Assembly: GCF_030651625.1 (NCBI RefSeq)
Contig: NZ_JAUSCF010000022.1
Span: 124,001-188,000 of the forward strand
Length of the DNA: 64,000 nt
Direction of reading: 5' to 3'
Origin: Hydrogenophaga sp.
Lineage (GTDB): Bacteria > Pseudomonadota > Gammaproteobacteria > Burkholderiales > Burkholderiaceae_C
Every line of letters begins with the position of its first letter. The first letter of the stretch is position 1. The position numbers were made by a program, and so were the translations under genes. The notes under the pieces were generated by a model. It made no database searches and had not been told where the DNA came from. It worked only from the letters and a program-made list of their open reading frames with translations. This document shows positions 5,549 to 53,760 of the stretch, in pieces.

Positions 5549-7642
5549 ATGAACGCCAACACCGCCACACTGGACCGAAATCCCCTGCTGGGCTCGCCTG
5601 ACCTGCCCAGGTTCGACGCCATCACACCGGAGTGTGTGGGGCCCGCCATCGATCAGCTGATTCAGCAGGCGAGCGAGGCACTGGAAACAGTGACGGAAGC
5701 GTCCTTTCCTGCCAAGTGGGCACTGCTGTCAAGGACGCTTGACGTACCCGCTGAGCGTCTGTCTCGGGCCTGGGGTGCAGTGAGCCATCTCAACAGCGTC
5801 GCCGATTCCCCCGAGCTGAGGGCCGCCTACAACGCGTCCCTGCCCAAAGTGACCGAATTCTGGACACGTCTGGGGGCGGACGAACGCCTGTACGCCAAGT
5901 ACAAGGCCATGGACCCCAGTGCCTTGACGTCGGAACAGGCACAGGCACACAAGAACGCCATGCGGGGATTTGTACTGGGTGGCGCAGACCTGGTAGGGGA
6001 AGCCAAGACACGGTTTGCCTGGCTGCAGGAACGACAGGCGGAACTGGCTCAGAAGTTCAGCGAAAACGCCCTGGATGCCACCGACGCATTCGCTTATTTT
6101 GCAACCGCAGAGGAAATGGCCGGTGTGCCGGGCGATGTGGTTCAAGCAACCGCTTCGGCGGCAGTGGCAGAGGGCAAGTCGGGCCACAAACTCACGCTGA
6201 AGATGCCTTGCTATCTTCCCGTCATGCAGTTCGCTCACAGCGGCAAGCTGCGTGAAACGCTGTACCGGGCCTACGTCACCCGGGCCAGCGACCAGGCGCC
6301 GGGCGACGCGATCAGGTTTGACAACGGCGCCATCATGGGCGAGCTCTTGAAACTGAGACACGAAGAAGCACAACTGCTGGGTTACAGACACCATGCTGAT
6401 GTTTCACTGGTGCCCAAGATGGCCGAATCGCCTGAACAGGTGATCGCCTTCCTGCGCGACCTGGCGGTGAAGTCCCGCCCCTTTGCAGAGAAGGACCTGG
6501 CTGACCTCCGCGCCTTTGCCGCTGCTGAGCTCGGCCTTGACGATCCTCAGGCATGGGACTGGCCGTACATCGGCGAAAAGCTCAAGGAAGCCCGCTACGC
6601 CTTCAGCGAACAGGAAGTCAAGCCGTATTTCACGGCTCCAAAAGTCCTGGGAGGCTTGTTCCAGATCGTCGAGACCTTGTTTGAAGTGGCCATCCGGCCT
6701 GATTCCGCACCGGTCTGGAACGATGGCGTGGCTTTCTACCGCATCGAACGCAAGACCGCCGAAGGGACACAGCTGGTTGGTCAGTTCTACCTGGACCCAT
6801 CGGCACGCACAGGCAAACGCGGCGGCGCCTGGATGGACGATGTGCGGGCCCGCTGGCTGCGCCCCGATACGGGGGCCCTGCAGACACCAGTGGCACACCT
6901 TGTGTGCAATTTCGCTGAGGGCGTGGCAGAAAACGGCATCGTGCGCCCGCCTTTGTTGACGCACGATGACGTGATCACCCTGTTCCATGAGTTCGGGCAC
7001 GGTCTGCACCACATGCTCACGCAGGTCAATGAACGCGACGTCTCTGGTATCAGTGGCGTTGAATGGGATGCGGTGGAACTGCCGAGCCAGTTCATGGAAA
7101 ACTTCTGCTGGGAATGGGATGTGCTCAAGCACATGACCGCCCACGTAGACACCGGCGAGGCATTGCCTCGTGCGCTTTTTGACAAGATGCTGGCAGCAAA
7201 GAACTACCAGAGCGGACTGCAAACCCTGCGCCAGGTGGAGTTCTCGTTGTTCGACATGCTTCTGCACAGCCTGCCGGAGCCCGCCACCACCCCTGAAGCC
7301 ATTCTGGCCTTGCAGCAGAAGGTCAGAGAAGAAGTGGCCGTGCTGAACCCTCCCCCTTACAGCCGCACGCCAAACACCTTCAGCCATATCTTTGCCGGCG
7401 GATATTCTGCCGGCTACTACAGCTACAAGTGGGCCGAAGTGCTGTCTGCCGATGCCTACGCCGCGTTTGAAGAAGCTGCCAAGGCCAACGGTCGCAGCAC
7501 CCTGGATGTGGCCACCGGGCGACGCTACCGGCAAGCCATTCTGGAAGCGGGAGGCAGTCGCCCGGCCATGGAATCCTTCAAGGCATTCCGTGGCAGGGAA
7601 CCCAGCATTGAAGCGTTGATGCGCCACCAGGGCATGGCATGA
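5549..7642 (+). CDS. prlC: oligopeptidase A (M3 family zinc metallopeptidase)
   Basis: Cytosolic thimet-type oligopeptidase that degrades signal peptides and other short peptides. It has 697 residues, close to the E. coli enzyme. The zinc-binding motif HEFGHGLHH lies at about residues 479-487, followed by the downstream Glu helix (ELPSQFMENFCWEW) that supplies the third ligand, and a C-terminal GGYSAGYYSYKWAEV segment typical of the family. The ATG at 5549 is 70 bp after the yhbY-type stop. Its stop is followed after 53 bp by the next gene on the same strand. Confidence 0.94.
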   Translation: MNANTATLDRNPLLGSPDLPRFDAITPECVGPAIDQLIQQASEALETVTEASFPAKWALLSRTLDVPAERLSRAWGAVSHLNSVADSPELRAAYNASLPKVTEFWTRLGADERLYAKYKAMDPSALTSEQAQAHKNAMRGFVLGGADLVGEAKTRFAWLQERQAELAQKFSENALDATDAFAYFATAEEMAGVPGDVVQATASAAVAEGKSGHKLTLKMPCYLPVMQFAHSGKLRETLYRAYVTRASDQAPGDAIRFDNGAIMGELLKLRHEEAQLLGYRHHADVSLVPKMAESPEQVIAFLRDLAVKSRPFAEKDLADLRAFAAAELGLDDPQAWDWPYIGEKLKEARYAFSEQEVKPYFTAPKVLGGLFQIVETLFEVAIRPDSAPVWNDGVAFYRIERKTAEGTQLVGQFYLDPSARTGKRGGAWMDDVRARWLRPDTGALQTPVAHLVCNFAEGVAENGIVRPPLLTHDDVITLFHEFGHGLHHMLTQVNERDVSGISGVEWDAVELPSQFMENFCWEWDVLKHMTAHVDTGEALPRALFDKMLAAKNYQSGLQTLRQVEFSLFDMLLHSLPEPATTPEAILALQQKVREEVAVLNPPPYSRTPNTFSHIFAGGYSAGYYSYKWAEVLSADAYAAFEEAAKANGRSTLDVATGRRYRQAILEAGGSRPAMESFKAFRGREPSIEALMRHQGMA

Positions 7643-22575: not shown

Positions 22576-24171
22576 TCAAATCTCCGGTCGCCCTGAGCCT
22601 GTCGATGGGCGGAGTGGGGGTGGTTCAAGGGCTGTGACAGGCTCAGCCCGAACGGCGTCGGATTCGTAAACGGAAAGCAGTTGACGCGCTGCGGTGCTCG
22701 CTGGCAATGTACCCGCCAGCACCTGCTGCGTGGTGGCATCCAGCGCGGAACGCACAGCCGGGTGGGTGCGGAAGCGGTGCTTGAGTCCTGCGTCGATGCG
22801 CTCCCACATCCAGGCGCGGGCTTGTTGCTGGCGACGGGCAGCGAGCTGTCCGCCGGCACTCCTGAGTTGGCGAAATCGGGTCACTTCGCTCCAGAACGCT
22901 TCGACACCCTGGTTTTTCAATGCGCTGAGCTGGATCACTTGCGGGTGCCAGATGCGTTCGTCGTGGTGGGCATGCTCGGGGTGGCCCTGCAGCCCGAGCA
23001 GGCGCAGCGACGACGTGATCTGCGCACGGGCACGTGTTGCGGCGTCGGGATCGAGATCGGCCTTGTTGATGACCACCAGATCGGCAAGCTCCATCACACC
23101 CTTCTTGATCGCCTGCAGGTCGTCGCCCGCGTTGGGCAATTGCATGAGCACAAACATGTCGGTCATGCCACTCACCGCTGTTTCGCTCTGGCCCACTCCC
23201 ACGGTCTCAACGATCACAATGTTGTAACCGGCGGCTTCACACACCAGCATGGCTTCGCGAGTCTTCTCAGCCACGCCACCCAAAGTGCCGCTGCTAGGGC
23301 TGGGTCGGATATAGGCCTGCTCATGAACCGAGAGCTTTTCCATGCGCGTCTTGTCGCCCAGGATGGATCCGCCCGAGACCGTGCTGGACGGATCGACGGT
23401 CAGCACCGCGACGCGGTGGCCTTGCTCTATCAGGTACAGGCCGAGCGCCTCGATGAAGGTGCTCTTGCCCACGCCCGGCACCCCGCTGATGCCCAGGCGA
23501 AAGGCATTGCCGGTGTGGGGCAGCAAGGCGGTGAGCAGCTCGTCTCCCTGCGCGCGGTGGTCAGCGCGGGTGGACTCCAGCAATGTGATGGCCTTGGCGA
23601 TAGCACGGCGCTGGAGCATGGCCTGACCGCTGACGATCGCGTCGAGAATGGACGCCACCTTGTGGGTAAGCCCTTCGACAGGCGCAGGACGAACGGGAAT
23701 GGTGGGTTCGCGAGGGAAAACTTTCCTTTCGGGCGGTGCGCTACCCCGGTTGAGCTGCGTTCCAATTCGTTCGGCCTGCGCTTCACTCCATTCGGACGGC
23801 ACCACGCTCCGTTCGGGCTGAGCTGGCCGAAGCCCATCCAGGCCCTGATTCGAACGCGCCAACGCCTGAACCCGCTCCCAGTCGCCCGCAATCAACGCTT
23901 CTTTCTTGGCCCGCGACCATCCCTTGATCTGCTGCTCGAAAGCCAAGGCACCTTCACGCGACTCAAACTGGCCCTGCCATACCAGCTGGACTGGCTTGCG
24001 CGTCGCGGTGTACCCCTCGTTCGCGGTTTCGTGATGCGACAGGCGCGCCTCCAGTTCGTCGGTATGGCCGACGTAGTAGGTGCCATCGCGGCACAGCAAC
24101 AGATAGACGTGGAAGGGTTTCACGCGGACTGTGTGGGTGAAGGCTTCGACAGGCTCAGCCCGAACGGACAT
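22576..24171 (-). CDS. meaB: GIY-YIG nuclease domain fused to MeaB G-protein chaperone
   Basis: A 531-codon open frame with two parts. Residues 18-105 are a UPF0213-type GIY-YIG nuclease with Y23, YYVG (32-35), R43, Y54 and E79 all in place, so the fold and active site look intact. Residues about 172-505 are MeaB, the GTPase that protects and loads methylmalonyl-CoA mutase, with Walker A GVPGVGKST (230-238), VDPSSTVSGGSILGDKTRM, and NKAD. The first 11 residues, the linker 106-170 and the last 26 residues are translated short repeats. MeaB homologues normally start near residue 170; a GTG there (codon 172) has only a weak ribosome site. It lies between scpA and pccB. Whether a fusion protein is made is not known. 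Confidence 0.88.
   Translation of the reverse strand: MSVRAEPVEAFTHTVRVKPFHVYLLLCRDGTYYVGHTDELEARLSHHETANEGYTATRKPVQLVWQGQFESREGALAFEQQIKGWSRAKKEALIAGDWERVQALARSNQGLDGLRPAQPERSVVPSEWSEAQAERIGTQLNRGSAPPERKVFPREPTIPVRPAPVEGLTHKVASILDAIVSGQAMLQRRAIAKAITLLESTRADHRAQGDELLTALLPHTGNAFRLGISGVPGVGKSTFIEALGLYLIEQGHRVAVLTVDPSSTVSGGSILGDKTRMEKLSVHEQAYIRPSPSSGTLGGVAEKTREAMLVCEAAGYNIVIVETVGVGQSETAVSGMTDMFVLMQLPNAGDDLQAIKKGVMELADLVVINKADLDPDAATRARAQITSSLRLLGLQGHPEHAHHDERIWHPQVIQLSALKNQGVEAFWSEVTRFRQLRSAGGQLAARRQQQARAWMWERIDAGLKHRFRTHPAVRSALDATTQQVLAGTLPASTAARQLLSVYESDAVRAEPVTALEPPPLRPSTGSGRPEI
22589..22655. repeat. hairpin repeat at the 3' end of meaB
   Basis: Inverted pair of the short-repeat core: CCTGAGCCTGTCGA at 22591-22604 and GACAGGCTCAGCCCGAACGG ending at 22655. 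The arms could form an 11-bp stem. The element is inside the open frame and encodes the last 26 residues of the meaB product. Confidence 0.75.
23671..23697. repeat. solo short repeat between GIY-YIG and MeaB parts
   Basis: Diverged copy of the same core (TTCGACAGGCGCAGGACGAA) located just before the region where MeaB homology begins. It encodes the linker residues RPAPVEG. Confidence 0.65.
23809..24167 (-). mobile_element. candidate GIY-YIG cassette bracketed by inverted repeats
   Basis: A 359-bp unit containing the complete GIY-YIG coding part. Its ends are inverted copies of one sequence: CCGTTCGGGCTGAGC...CGAAGCC at 23809-23834 and its reverse complement at 24142-24167, matching at 23 of 26 positions. 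It is inserted in frame ahead of the MeaB part. No target-site duplication was identified by eye. Confidence 0.5.
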
Positions 24172-24234: not shown

Positions 24235-26397
24235 TCAAGCTGCACGCAGCGCCTTCCTGATCTGCTCCAGCACATCCTTCGCACTGGCCGGAATCGGCGT
24301 GCCTGGGCCGTAGATGCCCTTCACGCCAGCCTCATACAGCATCTCATAGTCCTGGCGCGGTATCACACCACCCACGAACACGATGATGTCGTCAGCGCCC
24401 TGCTTCTTCAGCTCGGCAATGATGGCCGGCACCAGGGTCTTGTGGCCGGCGGCCAGCGTCGACACGCCCACCGCATGCACGTCGTTCTCGATGGCCTGGC
24501 GCGCGCATTCCTCGGGCGTCTGGAACAGCGGACCCATGTCGACGTCGAAACCGAGGTCGGCGAAGGCCGTGGCCACCACCTTGGCGCCGCGGTCGTGGCC
24601 GTCCTGGCCGAGTTTGCTGATCATCACGCGCGGTCGGCGGCCCTGCGCTTCAGCGAAGGCATTGATCTCGGTCTTGAGGGCGTCCCAGCCCTCGGCGGAA
24701 TCGTAGGCAGCAGCGTACACACCGGTCACCTTTTGTGTATCGGCGCGGTGGCGCCCGTAGACTTTCTCCAGCGCGTCGCTCACCTCGCCCACCGTGGCGC
24801 GCAAACGGATCGCCTGTATCGACAGATCGAGCAGGTTGCCTTCGCCACTTTCGGCGGCGGCCGTGAGCGCTTCGAGCGCGGCCTGCACTTTGGCAGCATC
24901 GCGCCTGGCCTTGATCTGTTGCAGGCGGGCAATCTGCCCATCCCGCACCGCCACGTTGTCGATGTCGCGCGCCTCGATGGTGTCTTCGGTCTTGAGCTTG
25001 TATTTGTTGACACCAACGATCACGTCTTTGCCACTGTCGATGCGCGCCTGCTTCTCGGCGGCCGCAGCCTCGATCTTGAGCTTGGCCCAGCCGCTGTCCA
25101 CGGCCCTGGTCATGCCGCCCATGGCCTGCACTTCTTCGATGATCTCCCAGGCCTTGTCGGCCATTTCCTGTGTGAGGCTTTCCATCATGTAGCTGCCCGC
25201 CCAGGGGTCTACCACGCTGGTGATGTGAGTCTCTTCCTGGATGATCAGCTGCGTGTTGCGCGCGATGCGGGCGCTGAACTCGGTGGGCAGTGCGATGGCT
25301 TCGTCAAAGCTGTTGGTGTGCAGGCTCTGCGTGCCGCCAAACACCGCAGCCATGGCTTCAATGGTGGTGCGCACGACGTTGTTGTAAGGGTCCTGCTCGG
25401 TCAGGCTCCATCCGGAGGTCTGGCAATGCGTGCGCAACATCAGGCTCTTGGGGTTCTTGGCGTTGAAGCCTTTCATGATGCGCGTCCACAGCAGCCGGGC
25501 TGCGCGCATTTTGGCAATCTCCAGATAGAAGTTCATGCCGATCGCCCAGAAGAAACTCAGCCGTCCGGCAAAGGCATCCACGTCCATGCCTTTGGCGATC
25601 GCCGTTTTCACGTACTCCTGCCCATCTGCCAGCGTGAAGGCCAGTTCCAGCGCCTGATTTGCGCCGGCTTCCTGCATGTGGTAGCCGCTGATGCTGATCG
25701 AGTTGAACTTCGGCATCTTCTGCGCCGTGTACTCGATGATGTCGCCGATGATCTTCATCGACGGCTCAGGCGGGTAGATGTAGGTGTTGCGAACCATGAA
25801 CTCCTTGAGGATGTCGTTCTGTATGGTTCCGCTGAGCTGGTCTTGGGCCACGCCCTGCTCTTCGGCCGCCACCACATAGCCGGCCAGCACCGGCAGCACC
25901 GCACCGTTCATGGTCATGGAAACACTGACCTTGTCCAGCGGGATCTGGTCAAACAGGGCCTTCATGTCCTCCACCGAGTCAATGGCCACACCGGCCTTGC
26001 CGACGTCACCCGTCACACGCGGGTGGTCGCTGTCGTACCCGCGATGGGTGGCCAAGTCGAACGCCACCGACACGCCTTGTCCACCCGCTGCCAGCGCCTT
26101 GCGGTAGAAAGCGTTGGACTCTTCGGCGGTAGAGAAGCCTGCATACTGGCGGATCGTCCAGGGGCGCACCGCGTACATCGTGGCCTGCGGGCCGCGAAGG
26201 AAAGGCTCGAAGCCTGGCAAGGTATCGGTGTGCAGCAGGTGGGCCGTGTCCTGAGCGGTGTACAGCGGCTTGATTGTGATGCCATCAGGGGTCACCCAGT
26301 TCAGCGCCTGCAGGTCGCCCCCTGGGGCCGATTTGCGCGCCGCCTGCGTCCAGGCGTCCAGGTTGACGGGTGCGAATTCAGGGTGCTTGGAGGTCAT
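24235..26397 (-). CDS. scpA: methylmalonyl-CoA mutase
   Basis: Adenosylcobalamin enzyme that converts (R)-methylmalonyl-CoA to succinyl-CoA. It has 720 residues, the full-length single-chain form. The N-terminal barrel includes [18 protein letters not shown], and the C-terminal cobalamin-binding domain has the lower-ligand motif DGHDRG (in [14 protein letters not shown]), followed by [11 protein letters not shown] and FVGGVIP. The gene heads the scpA-meaB-pccB-pccA cluster and is divergent from a GntR regulator that probably controls it. No cobalamin riboswitch was recognised upstream. Confidence 0.95.
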
Positions 26398-52326: not shown

Positions 52327-53760
52327 ATGAAAGCCGAACTCAATCAACGCCTCACCCAGGTCGGACCCGGCACACCGGGCGGTGAATTGCTGCGTCGCTA
52401 CTGGCAGCCGGTGGCACTGCTTGATGAATTCGACCCCGCACTGGACCCGCGCATGGCGGTGCGCCCGGTGAAGGCGGTGCGGATACTGGGGCAGGACTTC
52501 GTGCTGTTTCGCGATGCACAGGGCACCTTCGGCCTGCTCGACCGCGACTGCCCCCACCGTGGGGCCGATCTGGCTTACGGGCGCAATGAAGGCGACGGCC
52601 TGCGCTGTCCGTTCCACGGCTGGAAGTTCGACACCACTGGCCAGTGCATCGACACCCCGGCCGAACCAGCGGGCAGCACGCTGTGCACGCGCATCCGCCA
52701 GCGCAGCTACCCACTGGTTGAAAGGAGCGGTGTGCTCTTCGGCTGGATTGGCCCTGAGGGACAGACCCCTCCTCCCTTTCCCGATCTGGACTGTTTCGTT
52801 GCACCGGACACCCACACCTTTGCCTTCAAGGGGCTCTGGAACTGCAACTGGCTGCAGGCTTTTGAGGTGGGCATCGACCCGGCACATGCGTCGTACCTGC
52901 ACCGCTTCTTCAACGACGCCTCGCTGGAAGACAGCTATGGCAAACAGTTCCGTGGTGCCAGCGCAGGGGATGTGGGTGGCGAACGCTGGCCCATGACCCG
53001 GGTGATGCGCGAGTTCGGACAGCCCCAGATTTCCTTCACCAGCCAGCCCTACGGACTGCAGCTCACGGCTTTGCGACCCATGACCGAAGCCCTGACACAC
53101 GTGCGCATCACCAATGCGGTGTTTCCCCAGACCTTCGTGATCCCCCTGTCAGAAACCATGACCATCACGCAGATGCACGTGCCAGTGGACGACACGCACA
53201 ACCACTGGTTCGCCTTCTTCACCAGCTTTGCCGGCCCGGTGGACAAGTCGGCCATGCGCAACCAGCGACTGGATGCCGTCACCCTGCCCGACTACATCCC
53301 CAAGTCTGGCCGCCACAATCAGTGGGGCTTCAATCCCGAAGAACAAATGAATCGCACCTACCTGGGCATGGGCGAGGACGACATCAACGTGCACGACCAG
53401 TGGGCCTGCGAAAGCATGGGTGCCATTCAGGACCGCACACGCGAGCACCTGGGCACCACCGACAAGGTGATCATGGCCAACCGACGCCTGCTGCAACAGG
53501 CCATCGACGCTGTCGAACAAGGTGGCACCGCACCCGGCTTGGCCGACCCTGCACTGCACGACCAGATCGGTGGTCCCGACACGGTGGATGGCATCGCGCC
53601 CGCACAGGACTGGCAAGTCTGGTGGCAGGCCAGCGTGCGCGCCAAACGCGAGGGTGCACCATGGCGTTCGCTGCTGCCCGTTCGGGCTGGGCCGGCCGAA
53701 GCCCGTCCGCAGGTGGAGGCCAGCGCAGCGACAGAATCAGGGCAAAAGGCAGTGATCTGA
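52327..53760 (+). CDS. Rieske non-heme iron oxygenase, alpha subunit
   Basis: 477 residues. The Rieske [2Fe-2S] site is C75-x-H77 and C94-x2-H97 (CPHRGAD, CPFHGW); the mononuclear iron site is D184, H187, H192 in IDPAHASYLH. The N-terminal TPGGELLRRYWQPVAL resembles the phthalate-dioxygenase type, which works with an external reductase. A ferredoxin lies two genes downstream, no reductase is visible. The last 30 residues (PVRAGPAEARPQVE) come from a short repeat at 53677. AAGGA precedes the ATG by seven bases. The substrate is probably an aromatic or amine compound but not readable. Confidence 0.88.
   Translation: MKAELNQRLTQVGPGTPGGELLRRYWQPVALLDEFDPALDPRMAVRPVKAVRILGQDFVLFRDAQGTFGLLDRDCPHRGADLAYGRNEGDGLRCPFHGWKFDTTGQCIDTPAEPAGSTLCTRIRQRSYPLVERSGVLFGWIGPEGQTPPPFPDLDCFVAPDTHTFAFKGLWNCNWLQAFEVGIDPAHASYLHRFFNDASLEDSYGKQFRGASAGDVGGERWPMTRVMREFGQPQISFTSQPYGLQLTALRPMTEALTHVRITNAVFPQTFVIPLSETMTITQMHVPVDDTHNHWFAFFTSFAGPVDKSAMRNQRLDAVTLPDYIPKSGRHNQWGFNPEEQMNRTYLGMGEDDINVHDQWACESMGAIQDRTREHLGTTDKVIMANRRLLQQAIDAVEQGGTAPGLADPALHDQIGGPDTVDGIAPAQDWQVWWQASVRAKREGAPWRSLLPVRAGPAEARPQVEASAATESGQKAVI
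53677..53706. repeat. solo short repeat translated as Rieske C-terminal tail
   Basis: Variant of the repeat seen around meaB (CCGTTCGGGCTGGGCCGGCC, then GAAGCCCG), lying in the last part of the Rieske open frame. It is read as PVRAGPAEARP. Confidence 0.6.

Follow-up and report, generated by a model that had tools for sequence, protein, structure and literature searches.

GIY-YIG nucleases and matching palindromic repeats: a candidate REP-like mobile system behind a GIY-YIG–MeaB fusion

The meaB gene in a stretch of 64,000 nucleotides of Hydrogenophaga sp. DNA (the window) begins with a nuclease domain and is dotted with short repeats, which raises the question of how such a fusion arose and whether nuclease and repeats belong together. 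The fusion is a single frame of 531 amino acids (Table 1). An earlier note on this DNA had described an intact GIY-YIG domain ahead of the MeaB G-protein, and both Pfam and the residues bear this out: the GIY-YIG match has an E value of 9.6e-13, the MeaB match (aa 191-470) one of 3.3e-106, and Y23, YYVG 32-35, R43 and E79 are all present. Across 22 aligned rows Y23, G35 and E79 are invariant and R43 nearly so. With the domain and its Y, Y, R and E residues in place, the protein belongs to the GIY-YIG nuclease superfamily. Pfam assigns six families to the frame, all of them GIY-YIG, MeaB or P-loop families; no HUH Y1 transposase is among them, and no further DNA-binding domain was found by Pfam in the 531-aa frame. 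The window genome has two GIY-YIG domains, that of the fusion gene and one in a 721-aa open frame, which is UvrC-like by length only.

Table 1. Positions of the fusion gene, its parts, the repeat copies and the upstream gene in the window.
Feature	Position	Strand	Source
GIY-YIG::MeaB fusion ORF, 531 aa	22576..24171	-	ORF list, Pfam
GIY-YIG domain, aa 20-90; Y23, Y32/Y33, R43, H47, E79	23902..24114	-	Pfam
GIY unit C-terminal tail WERVQALARS, aa 98-107	23851..23880	-	
GIY-YIG/MeaB linker with repeat-derived codons	23647..23850	-	
MeaB part, aa 176-531	22579..23646	-	Pfam
Methylmalonyl-CoA mutase (mcm), gene upstream of the fusion	24235..26397	-	
Type A repeat, upstream arm, exact copy, CCGTTCGGGCTGAGCCTGTCGAAG	24144..24167	-	
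Type A repeat, downstream arm, inverted	23809..23832	+	
Type A repeat in linker, orientation of the upstream arm	23673..23696	-	
Repeat copy in the MeaB C-terminal extension	22632..22655	-	
Repeat copy at the MeaB C-terminus, inverted relative to the copy in the extension	22584..22607	+	

The repeats were also much as first described, namely as inverted copies of a 26-bp sequence flanking the module with more copies in the linker and at the C-terminus. The flanking pair (23808-23834 and 24142-24168) measures 27 nt, is 89% complementary and brackets the GIY-YIG module, and the additional copies were recovered at both places (Table 1). A 23-mer allowing up to three mismatches gave five matches in the 64 kb, four of them at 22633-24167, versus none in 100 shuffles. 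The 14-nt repeat core occurs in 25 exact copies in the window genome, against 0 for the reversed control. The fifth match in the window (53678-53700, three mismatches) is a diverged copy that lies away from the fusion gene.

The window repeat, type A, consists of a CCGTTC tag and an imperfect hairpin with the core TTCGACARGCTCA. GAACGG stands after 91 of 130 type A copies. Full pairing of the four bases on each side of the core was found in 74 of the 130 copies (shuffle mean 22), and several pair types occur at these flanks, which implies that pairing was kept through change. Full flank pairing was likewise present in 16 of 32 type B copies (7 in shuffles) and in none of 12 type C copies. The repeats are frequently arranged as inverted pairs, and the predicted folding energy of one real pair is -31.6 kcal/mol (z -10.8). 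A hairpin of the single repeat could not be argued from energy, since the folding of six single-repeat strings was not clearly better than that of shuffles; its pairing is visible through covariation only. Types A and B, and not type C, thus combine an imperfect hairpin with preserved pairing, inverted pairs and high copy number, as the repeats of REP-RAYT systems do. RAYTs are REP-associated tyrosine transposases, HUH Y1 enzymes with GTAG-tagged repeats; the window repeat lacks the GTAG tag. It also differs from the CGTC-tagged REPs, which are defined by a CGTC tag, a hairpin and a CCA tail.

To see where the module occurs in relatives, 299 genomes of the family were searched. A GIY match at E 1e-6 was present in 31 genomes, 23 of which hold a close relative (100 bits or more); one genome has two, giving 24 close loci. 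The gene lies between mcm and meaB in 22 of these 24, and in 20 of the 22 its frame runs into MeaB, the exceptions being L008 and L009. A single recent insertion in the window genome was rejected on the grounds that 22 loci share the junction, and the initial view of the fusion as a lone event here had to be given up, with 20 of 22 family loci fused at the same place. Translated repeats are present in the GIY-MeaB linkers of the family loci. In L003 a repeat pair lies in frame inside a 32-codon MeaB insertion that is absent in L039 of the same genus.

The earlier note had proposed a search for the empty site in meaB loci of relatives, and GIY-free mcm-meaB junctions were indeed found. A set of 40 genomes was chosen in which the close gene is not intact, and 37 of them gave a meaB match: L034 of genome G071 and 36 further loci. 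No GIY match at E 0.2 or better was found in these 36. In 17 of the 35 GIY-free loci that have both genes, the mcm stop precedes the first aligned MeaB residue by 14-38 nt; in L036, where a repeat is found, it does so by 53 nt. The distance is 85-936 nt in another 17 of the 35; truncated alignments were rejected as the cause, the distances being real. The gap frames of six loci were checked by Pfam. Five matched, with PIN-domain genes in L042, L067 and L070 (in L070 next to a MazE-like antitoxin) and GNAT genes in L044 and L054, and L065 gave no match. The junction therefore accepts small genes generally and is not special to GIY. G071 has a truncated GIY gene with a repeat, and G208, of the same genus as the window, has a lone repeat at the junction in a sequence context like that of the window linker copy. 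The lone repeat is what would be expected after recombination between copies in the same orientation.

The recurrent in-frame fusion could be read as a functional one, in which the GIY-YIG domain works alongside MeaB in B12 metabolism while the repeats are incidental. Fusion in one phase in 20 of 22 loci would have a binomial probability of 3e-8 by chance if shared ancestry is ignored, which favors such a role, but the gene is present in only 23 of the 299 family genomes and its tree conflicts with that of MeaB. The AU test rejected holding the GIY clade together on MeaB (p 0.011) and on mcm (p 0.003), the conflict concerning L017 and L024, and holding the MeaB clade together on GIY (p 0.036), for groups that were named after the trees had been seen. 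Simple vertical descent with meaB is disfavored by this conflict, as far as a weakly resolved GIY tree of 89 columns allows. In Sphingomonadales, Chloroflexi and others, moreover, close relatives of the nuclease are located away from meaB, and some lie at a thiolase junction. Furthermore, five arrays listed by hand had same-strand copy spacings that were multiples of three throughout in four cases and summed to a multiple of three in the fifth. Such frame-keeping is explained by the need to keep MeaB translated, which again speaks against a functional fusion, and we regard a role in B12 metabolism as most improbable.

The thiolase junction was seen in L023 (oriented 5968-6420) and L025 (oriented 5974-6411), which belong to two different genera and carry a GIY gene of the B type described below. 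The neighboring genes, named by eye, are presumably thiolase-like and SDR-like. This junction is a second recurrent site.

Repeats and gene were found to go together in the genomes of the family. The search words for the genome counts were TTCGACARGCTCAG for type A and TTCGATACCTCAGNNCGAAC for type B. The median number of repeat copies per genome was 60 with the gene and 0 without it, and at least 10 type A copies were present in 20 of the 23 genomes with a close gene versus 23 of the 276 without an intact one. The numbers in the latter 23 reached 246, and one of them, G071, has the truncated remnant. A profile search of 11 of these repeat-rich genomes gave no GIY trace at E 0.01, in a run that had no positive control of its own, with a profile that did match in the phylum scan. 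These genomes indicate that repeats persist without the gene, or that some other factor is able to spread them. The mcm tree was used for phylogenetic contrasts, for which GIY-free rows had been picked partly for repeat richness. With the threshold set to 5 copies, the contrasts gave 4.2 versus 0.0 pairs (median p 0.125), followed by 4.3 versus 0.6 at 10 (median p 0.22) and 6.2 versus 0.6 at 20 (median p 0.07). They are few, point weakly in the right direction and are not significant at the median. With respect to single genomes, G119, G130, G029, G083, G168 and G114 have 87-246 type A copies, and no GIY gene was found in them.

The tail of the GIY protein corresponds to the repeat type. In a set of 140 loci (137 distinct places), type B repeats accompany all nine loci with an AWGxNP tail and 0 of 131 others, and type C repeats accompany all five loci with an RPPxER tail and 0 of 135 others. 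These statistics are descriptive, since the patterns were written after reading the loci and the one for type B was broadened so as to take in L207. On the weakly resolved GIY tree, three changes are required for the B tail. On the genome level, type B was found in 16 of 299 genomes. The seven genomes with AWGxNP tails all have it, in 3-145 copies, as do two of the 16 other gene-bearing genomes (3 and 1 copies) and nine of the 292 when all others are counted. At least three type B copies occur in 7 of 7 genomes with the B-type gene versus 4 of 292 others. Genomes with only the B-type gene hold type A copies too (4-83). In related bacteria each type of GIY enzyme is accompanied by a particular repeat type, and this suggests that it is the enzymes which spread the repeats.

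A different explanation is that another factor spreads the repeats and that the GIY gene is a homing-like passenger that settles within or beside them, just as REPs serve as landing sites for insertion sequences. The repeat-rich genomes without a trace of the gene are in line with this, as is the status of GIY-YIG as a classical homing-endonuclease domain (PMC1564403). G168, which shares a genus with the B-type G246, has 118 type B copies and G083 has 37, and no gene was found in either. However, type B repeats are otherwise almost confined to genomes with a B-type gene, and tail type matches repeat type. Genome G207 is informative here: it has only three exact type B copies, all at its own B-type gene, so this gene did not land in a pre-existing type B population. 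G113, of the same genus, carries an A-type gene at the same mcm-meaB junction. We consider the passenger explanation unlikely.

Nuclease genes of the same class are also present outside the family. A scan of 398 genomes of the phylum with the family profile gave matches in 202 at E 1e-8, of which the 37 best loci outside the family (L071-L107) and 23 weaker ones (L108-L130) were taken. The 37 include L107, their weakest member, which ends like a YhbQ protein and was grouped with the YhbQ-like set. A further named sample comprised the best 80 of 572 candidates. In these best 80, mcm-meaB placement was found in Hydrogenophaga, Polaromonas, Variovorax, Acidovorax, Xenophilus, Pseudacidovorax and Aromatoleum, and no mcm or meaB was found on the DNA examined around the gene in many Sphingomonadales, or in Thiocapsa, Chloroflexi, Nitrospirota, Binatia and others. 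According to organism titles, members of this first class occur in Proteobacteria, Chloroflexota, Nitrospirota and other phyla.

Inverted repeats are enriched around genes of the first class. Inverted pairs of at least 14 nt were found in 18 of 23 family GIY windows (the locus under study not counted) versus 8 of 144 control windows, and in 28 of 36 phylum GIY windows versus 19 of 173 controls from the same loci, i.e., in 46 of 59 versus 27 of 317 for both sets. The best 80 of 572 gave 57 of 80 versus 13 of 134. A motif of the TTCGA..TCAGG type was present at 31 of 36 phylum loci (19 of 173 controls) and at 70 of those best 80 (15 of 134 controls). In the weak phylum loci inverted pairs were seen in only 2 of 24, and both belong to a second class of GIY-YIG genes.

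The nearest solved structures of the window domain are the UPF0213 proteins BH0048 and EF2693. Sequence profiles matched 1zg2 (E 1.1e-18) and 1ywl (E 1.2e-15), and the same two structures took ranks 1 and 2 in Foldseek with a single-sequence model (mean pLDDT 76), which places the predicted fold nearest to UPF0213/YhbQ. Slx1 and UvrC were reached weakly by profile and structure searches; these enzymes cut distorted DNA. The earlier note had raised a possible link of stand-alone UPF0213 genes to the repeat, and this part did not hold. YhbQ-like loci had TTCGA-type repeats in 0 of 22 cases and a strict CGTC hairpin in 0 of 22, so YhbQ-like UPF0213 proteins were rejected as a repeat-linked family; the linked genes form two other GIY-YIG classes. 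While YhbQ-like proteins share the fold, their examined ends also lack the GDW tail.

The second class was recognized from eight weak family matches (L026-L033), which carry the signature ..WKIALIEKENPxWxDLY and lie among repeats of the CGTC or a related type. At E 1e-20 this NPxW class is present in 72 of 299 family genomes. We sampled every third of 120 listed rows from 1 to 112 (38 loci) plus row 5, giving 39 loci (L211-L249), and analyzed these together with the eight. Inverted pairs were found in 41 of the 47 NPxW windows versus 9 of 123 controls. A strict CGTC-tagged hairpin was present at 30 of 47 loci versus 17 of 123 control windows, and a first, different CGTC pattern at 21 of 47 versus 6 of 123; the eight family loci had suggested the CGTC test and are therefore not independent of it. 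The two classes go with different repeats, with a strict CGTC hairpin near 10 of 116 first-class loci and a positive TTCGA test near 3 of 47 NPxW loci.

Pairs of related loci were compared to locate the ends of the units. L238 and L242 are from one genome, and L248 is from another genome of that genus. L242 and L248 (87% alike) share a repeat-GIY-repeat segment of about 500 bp up to the outer ends of the repeats, with unrelated flanks; these units thus have terminal inverted repeats at unrelated sites, as insertion sequences and MITEs do. For L238/L242 (88%) the left end is shared exactly and the right end diverges within the repeat, and for L219/L222, L173/L195 and L071/L162 (79%) homology stops at the repeats or within about 15 nt. 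The boundary of L240/L241 fits on the left side only. For L231/L236 (71%) the alignment is confined to the gene and hence says nothing on the boundary. Four of the seven pairs are informative at both ends, or nearly so. No obvious target-site duplication was seen by eye at the limited unit ends compared.

These boundaries also bear on the idea that the host keeps the nuclease for resolving cruciforms of abundant inverted repeats, without spreading them. The profile does weakly reach Slx1, a structure-specific endonuclease, and repeat pairs are capable of very stable hairpins. Such housekeeping is nevertheless quite unlikely, in our view less likely than the passenger explanation: the gene itself is bounded by repeats at unrelated sites, it comes and goes, with no fewer than 12 changes in its presence along well-supported branches when 58 chosen loci are placed on the mcm tree, and 23 genomes keep at least 10 copies without an intact gene.

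Comparison of loci and genomes established the association of gene and repeats, the matching of tail and repeat, unit boundaries at repeats, filled and empty sites, and loss and transfer at the junction. The explanation we prefer, with a probability of about 0.73, is that GIY-YIG nucleases, together with the REP-like repeats cognate to them, make up mobile systems comparable to REP-RAYT; the window GIY-YIG domain would be the nuclease of such a system. The 23 repeat-rich genomes in which no intact gene is present, and the unrelated small genes at the mcm-meaB junction, speak against it. From these patterns we infer binding, cutting, copying and movement by the GIY nuclease. Since the nearest solved relatives are UPF0213 proteins and, weakly, Slx1 and UvrC, which cut distorted DNA, we propose a division of labor between the tail, which would locate the repeat, the domain, which would make the cut, and repair, which would do the copying. 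The C-terminal tail would recognize its own short repeat, which is type A in the window, and the nuclease would cut a cruciform or single-stranded hairpin formed by an inverted repeat pair. Repair by copying could then spread repeat pairs and occasionally the whole repeat-GIY-repeat unit. In this family the unit may have come to occupy the mcm-meaB junction many times, and its survival there would rest on the repeats and the nuclease keeping the frame of MeaB. Behind the mcm stop the unit is presumably expressed with the operon, MeaB being read through it. The original suggestion, a unit of nuclease and repeats that can insert without breaking a frame and has a link to the spread of the repeat, thus gains support from comparison, while movement of the repeat by the nuclease is inferred.

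The proposed system resembles REP/REPIN-RAYT (TnpA-REP) in its short palindromic repeats, which number from tens to hundreds and often form inverted pairs, and in a nuclease gene flanked by the same repeats. It differs in the enzyme, GIY-YIG instead of HUH Y1, and in the tag, CCGTTC/GAACGG instead of GTAG. With homing endonucleases of the I-TevI type it has the catalytic domain and the recurrent occupation of a site in common, whereas the window unit has flanking repeats that are present in many copies elsewhere. For CGTC-tagged REPs, a survey reported no dedicated transposase and asked what moves them, and the term GIY-YIG does not occur in its text (Di Nocera et al., 2013; PMC3733652). Such hairpins lie near the 30 NPxW loci counted above; the window repeat is without the CGTC tag. 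In the open-access literature, preprints being outside the scope, no link between GIY-YIG and REPs was found, and the exact repeat sequences had no match in open-access papers.

Extending the proposal to both classes, we find it reasonably likely, with somewhat less confidence than in the mobile system as such, that two large classes of small GIY-YIG nucleases are the dedicated mobilizing enzymes of two palindromic repeat superfamilies, the CCGTTC-tagged TTCGA..TCAGG repeats and the CGTC-tagged REPs, with a swappable C-terminal tail setting the repeat served in the first class. If true, bacteria would have solved the REP-RAYT problem a second time, with an unrelated enzyme. REPs are common in bacteria, and a nuclease matched to them type for type would give non-GTAG repeats a named enzyme and the enzyme a named substrate. 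It would also explain the repeat-encoded peptides PVRPEPVEG, LRQAQPER and PSTSSGRT in these proteins, and the odd GIY-YIG::MeaB fusions.

Outside the three types, loci L196, L204 and L206 have the GIY tails RLSRGTHRHER, RLSRGKHKHQR and RLGRGKHSHQR, respectively, each with a longer-loop repeat TTCGACTTCG..ACGCTCAGG. These tails and this repeat are a possible further matched pair.
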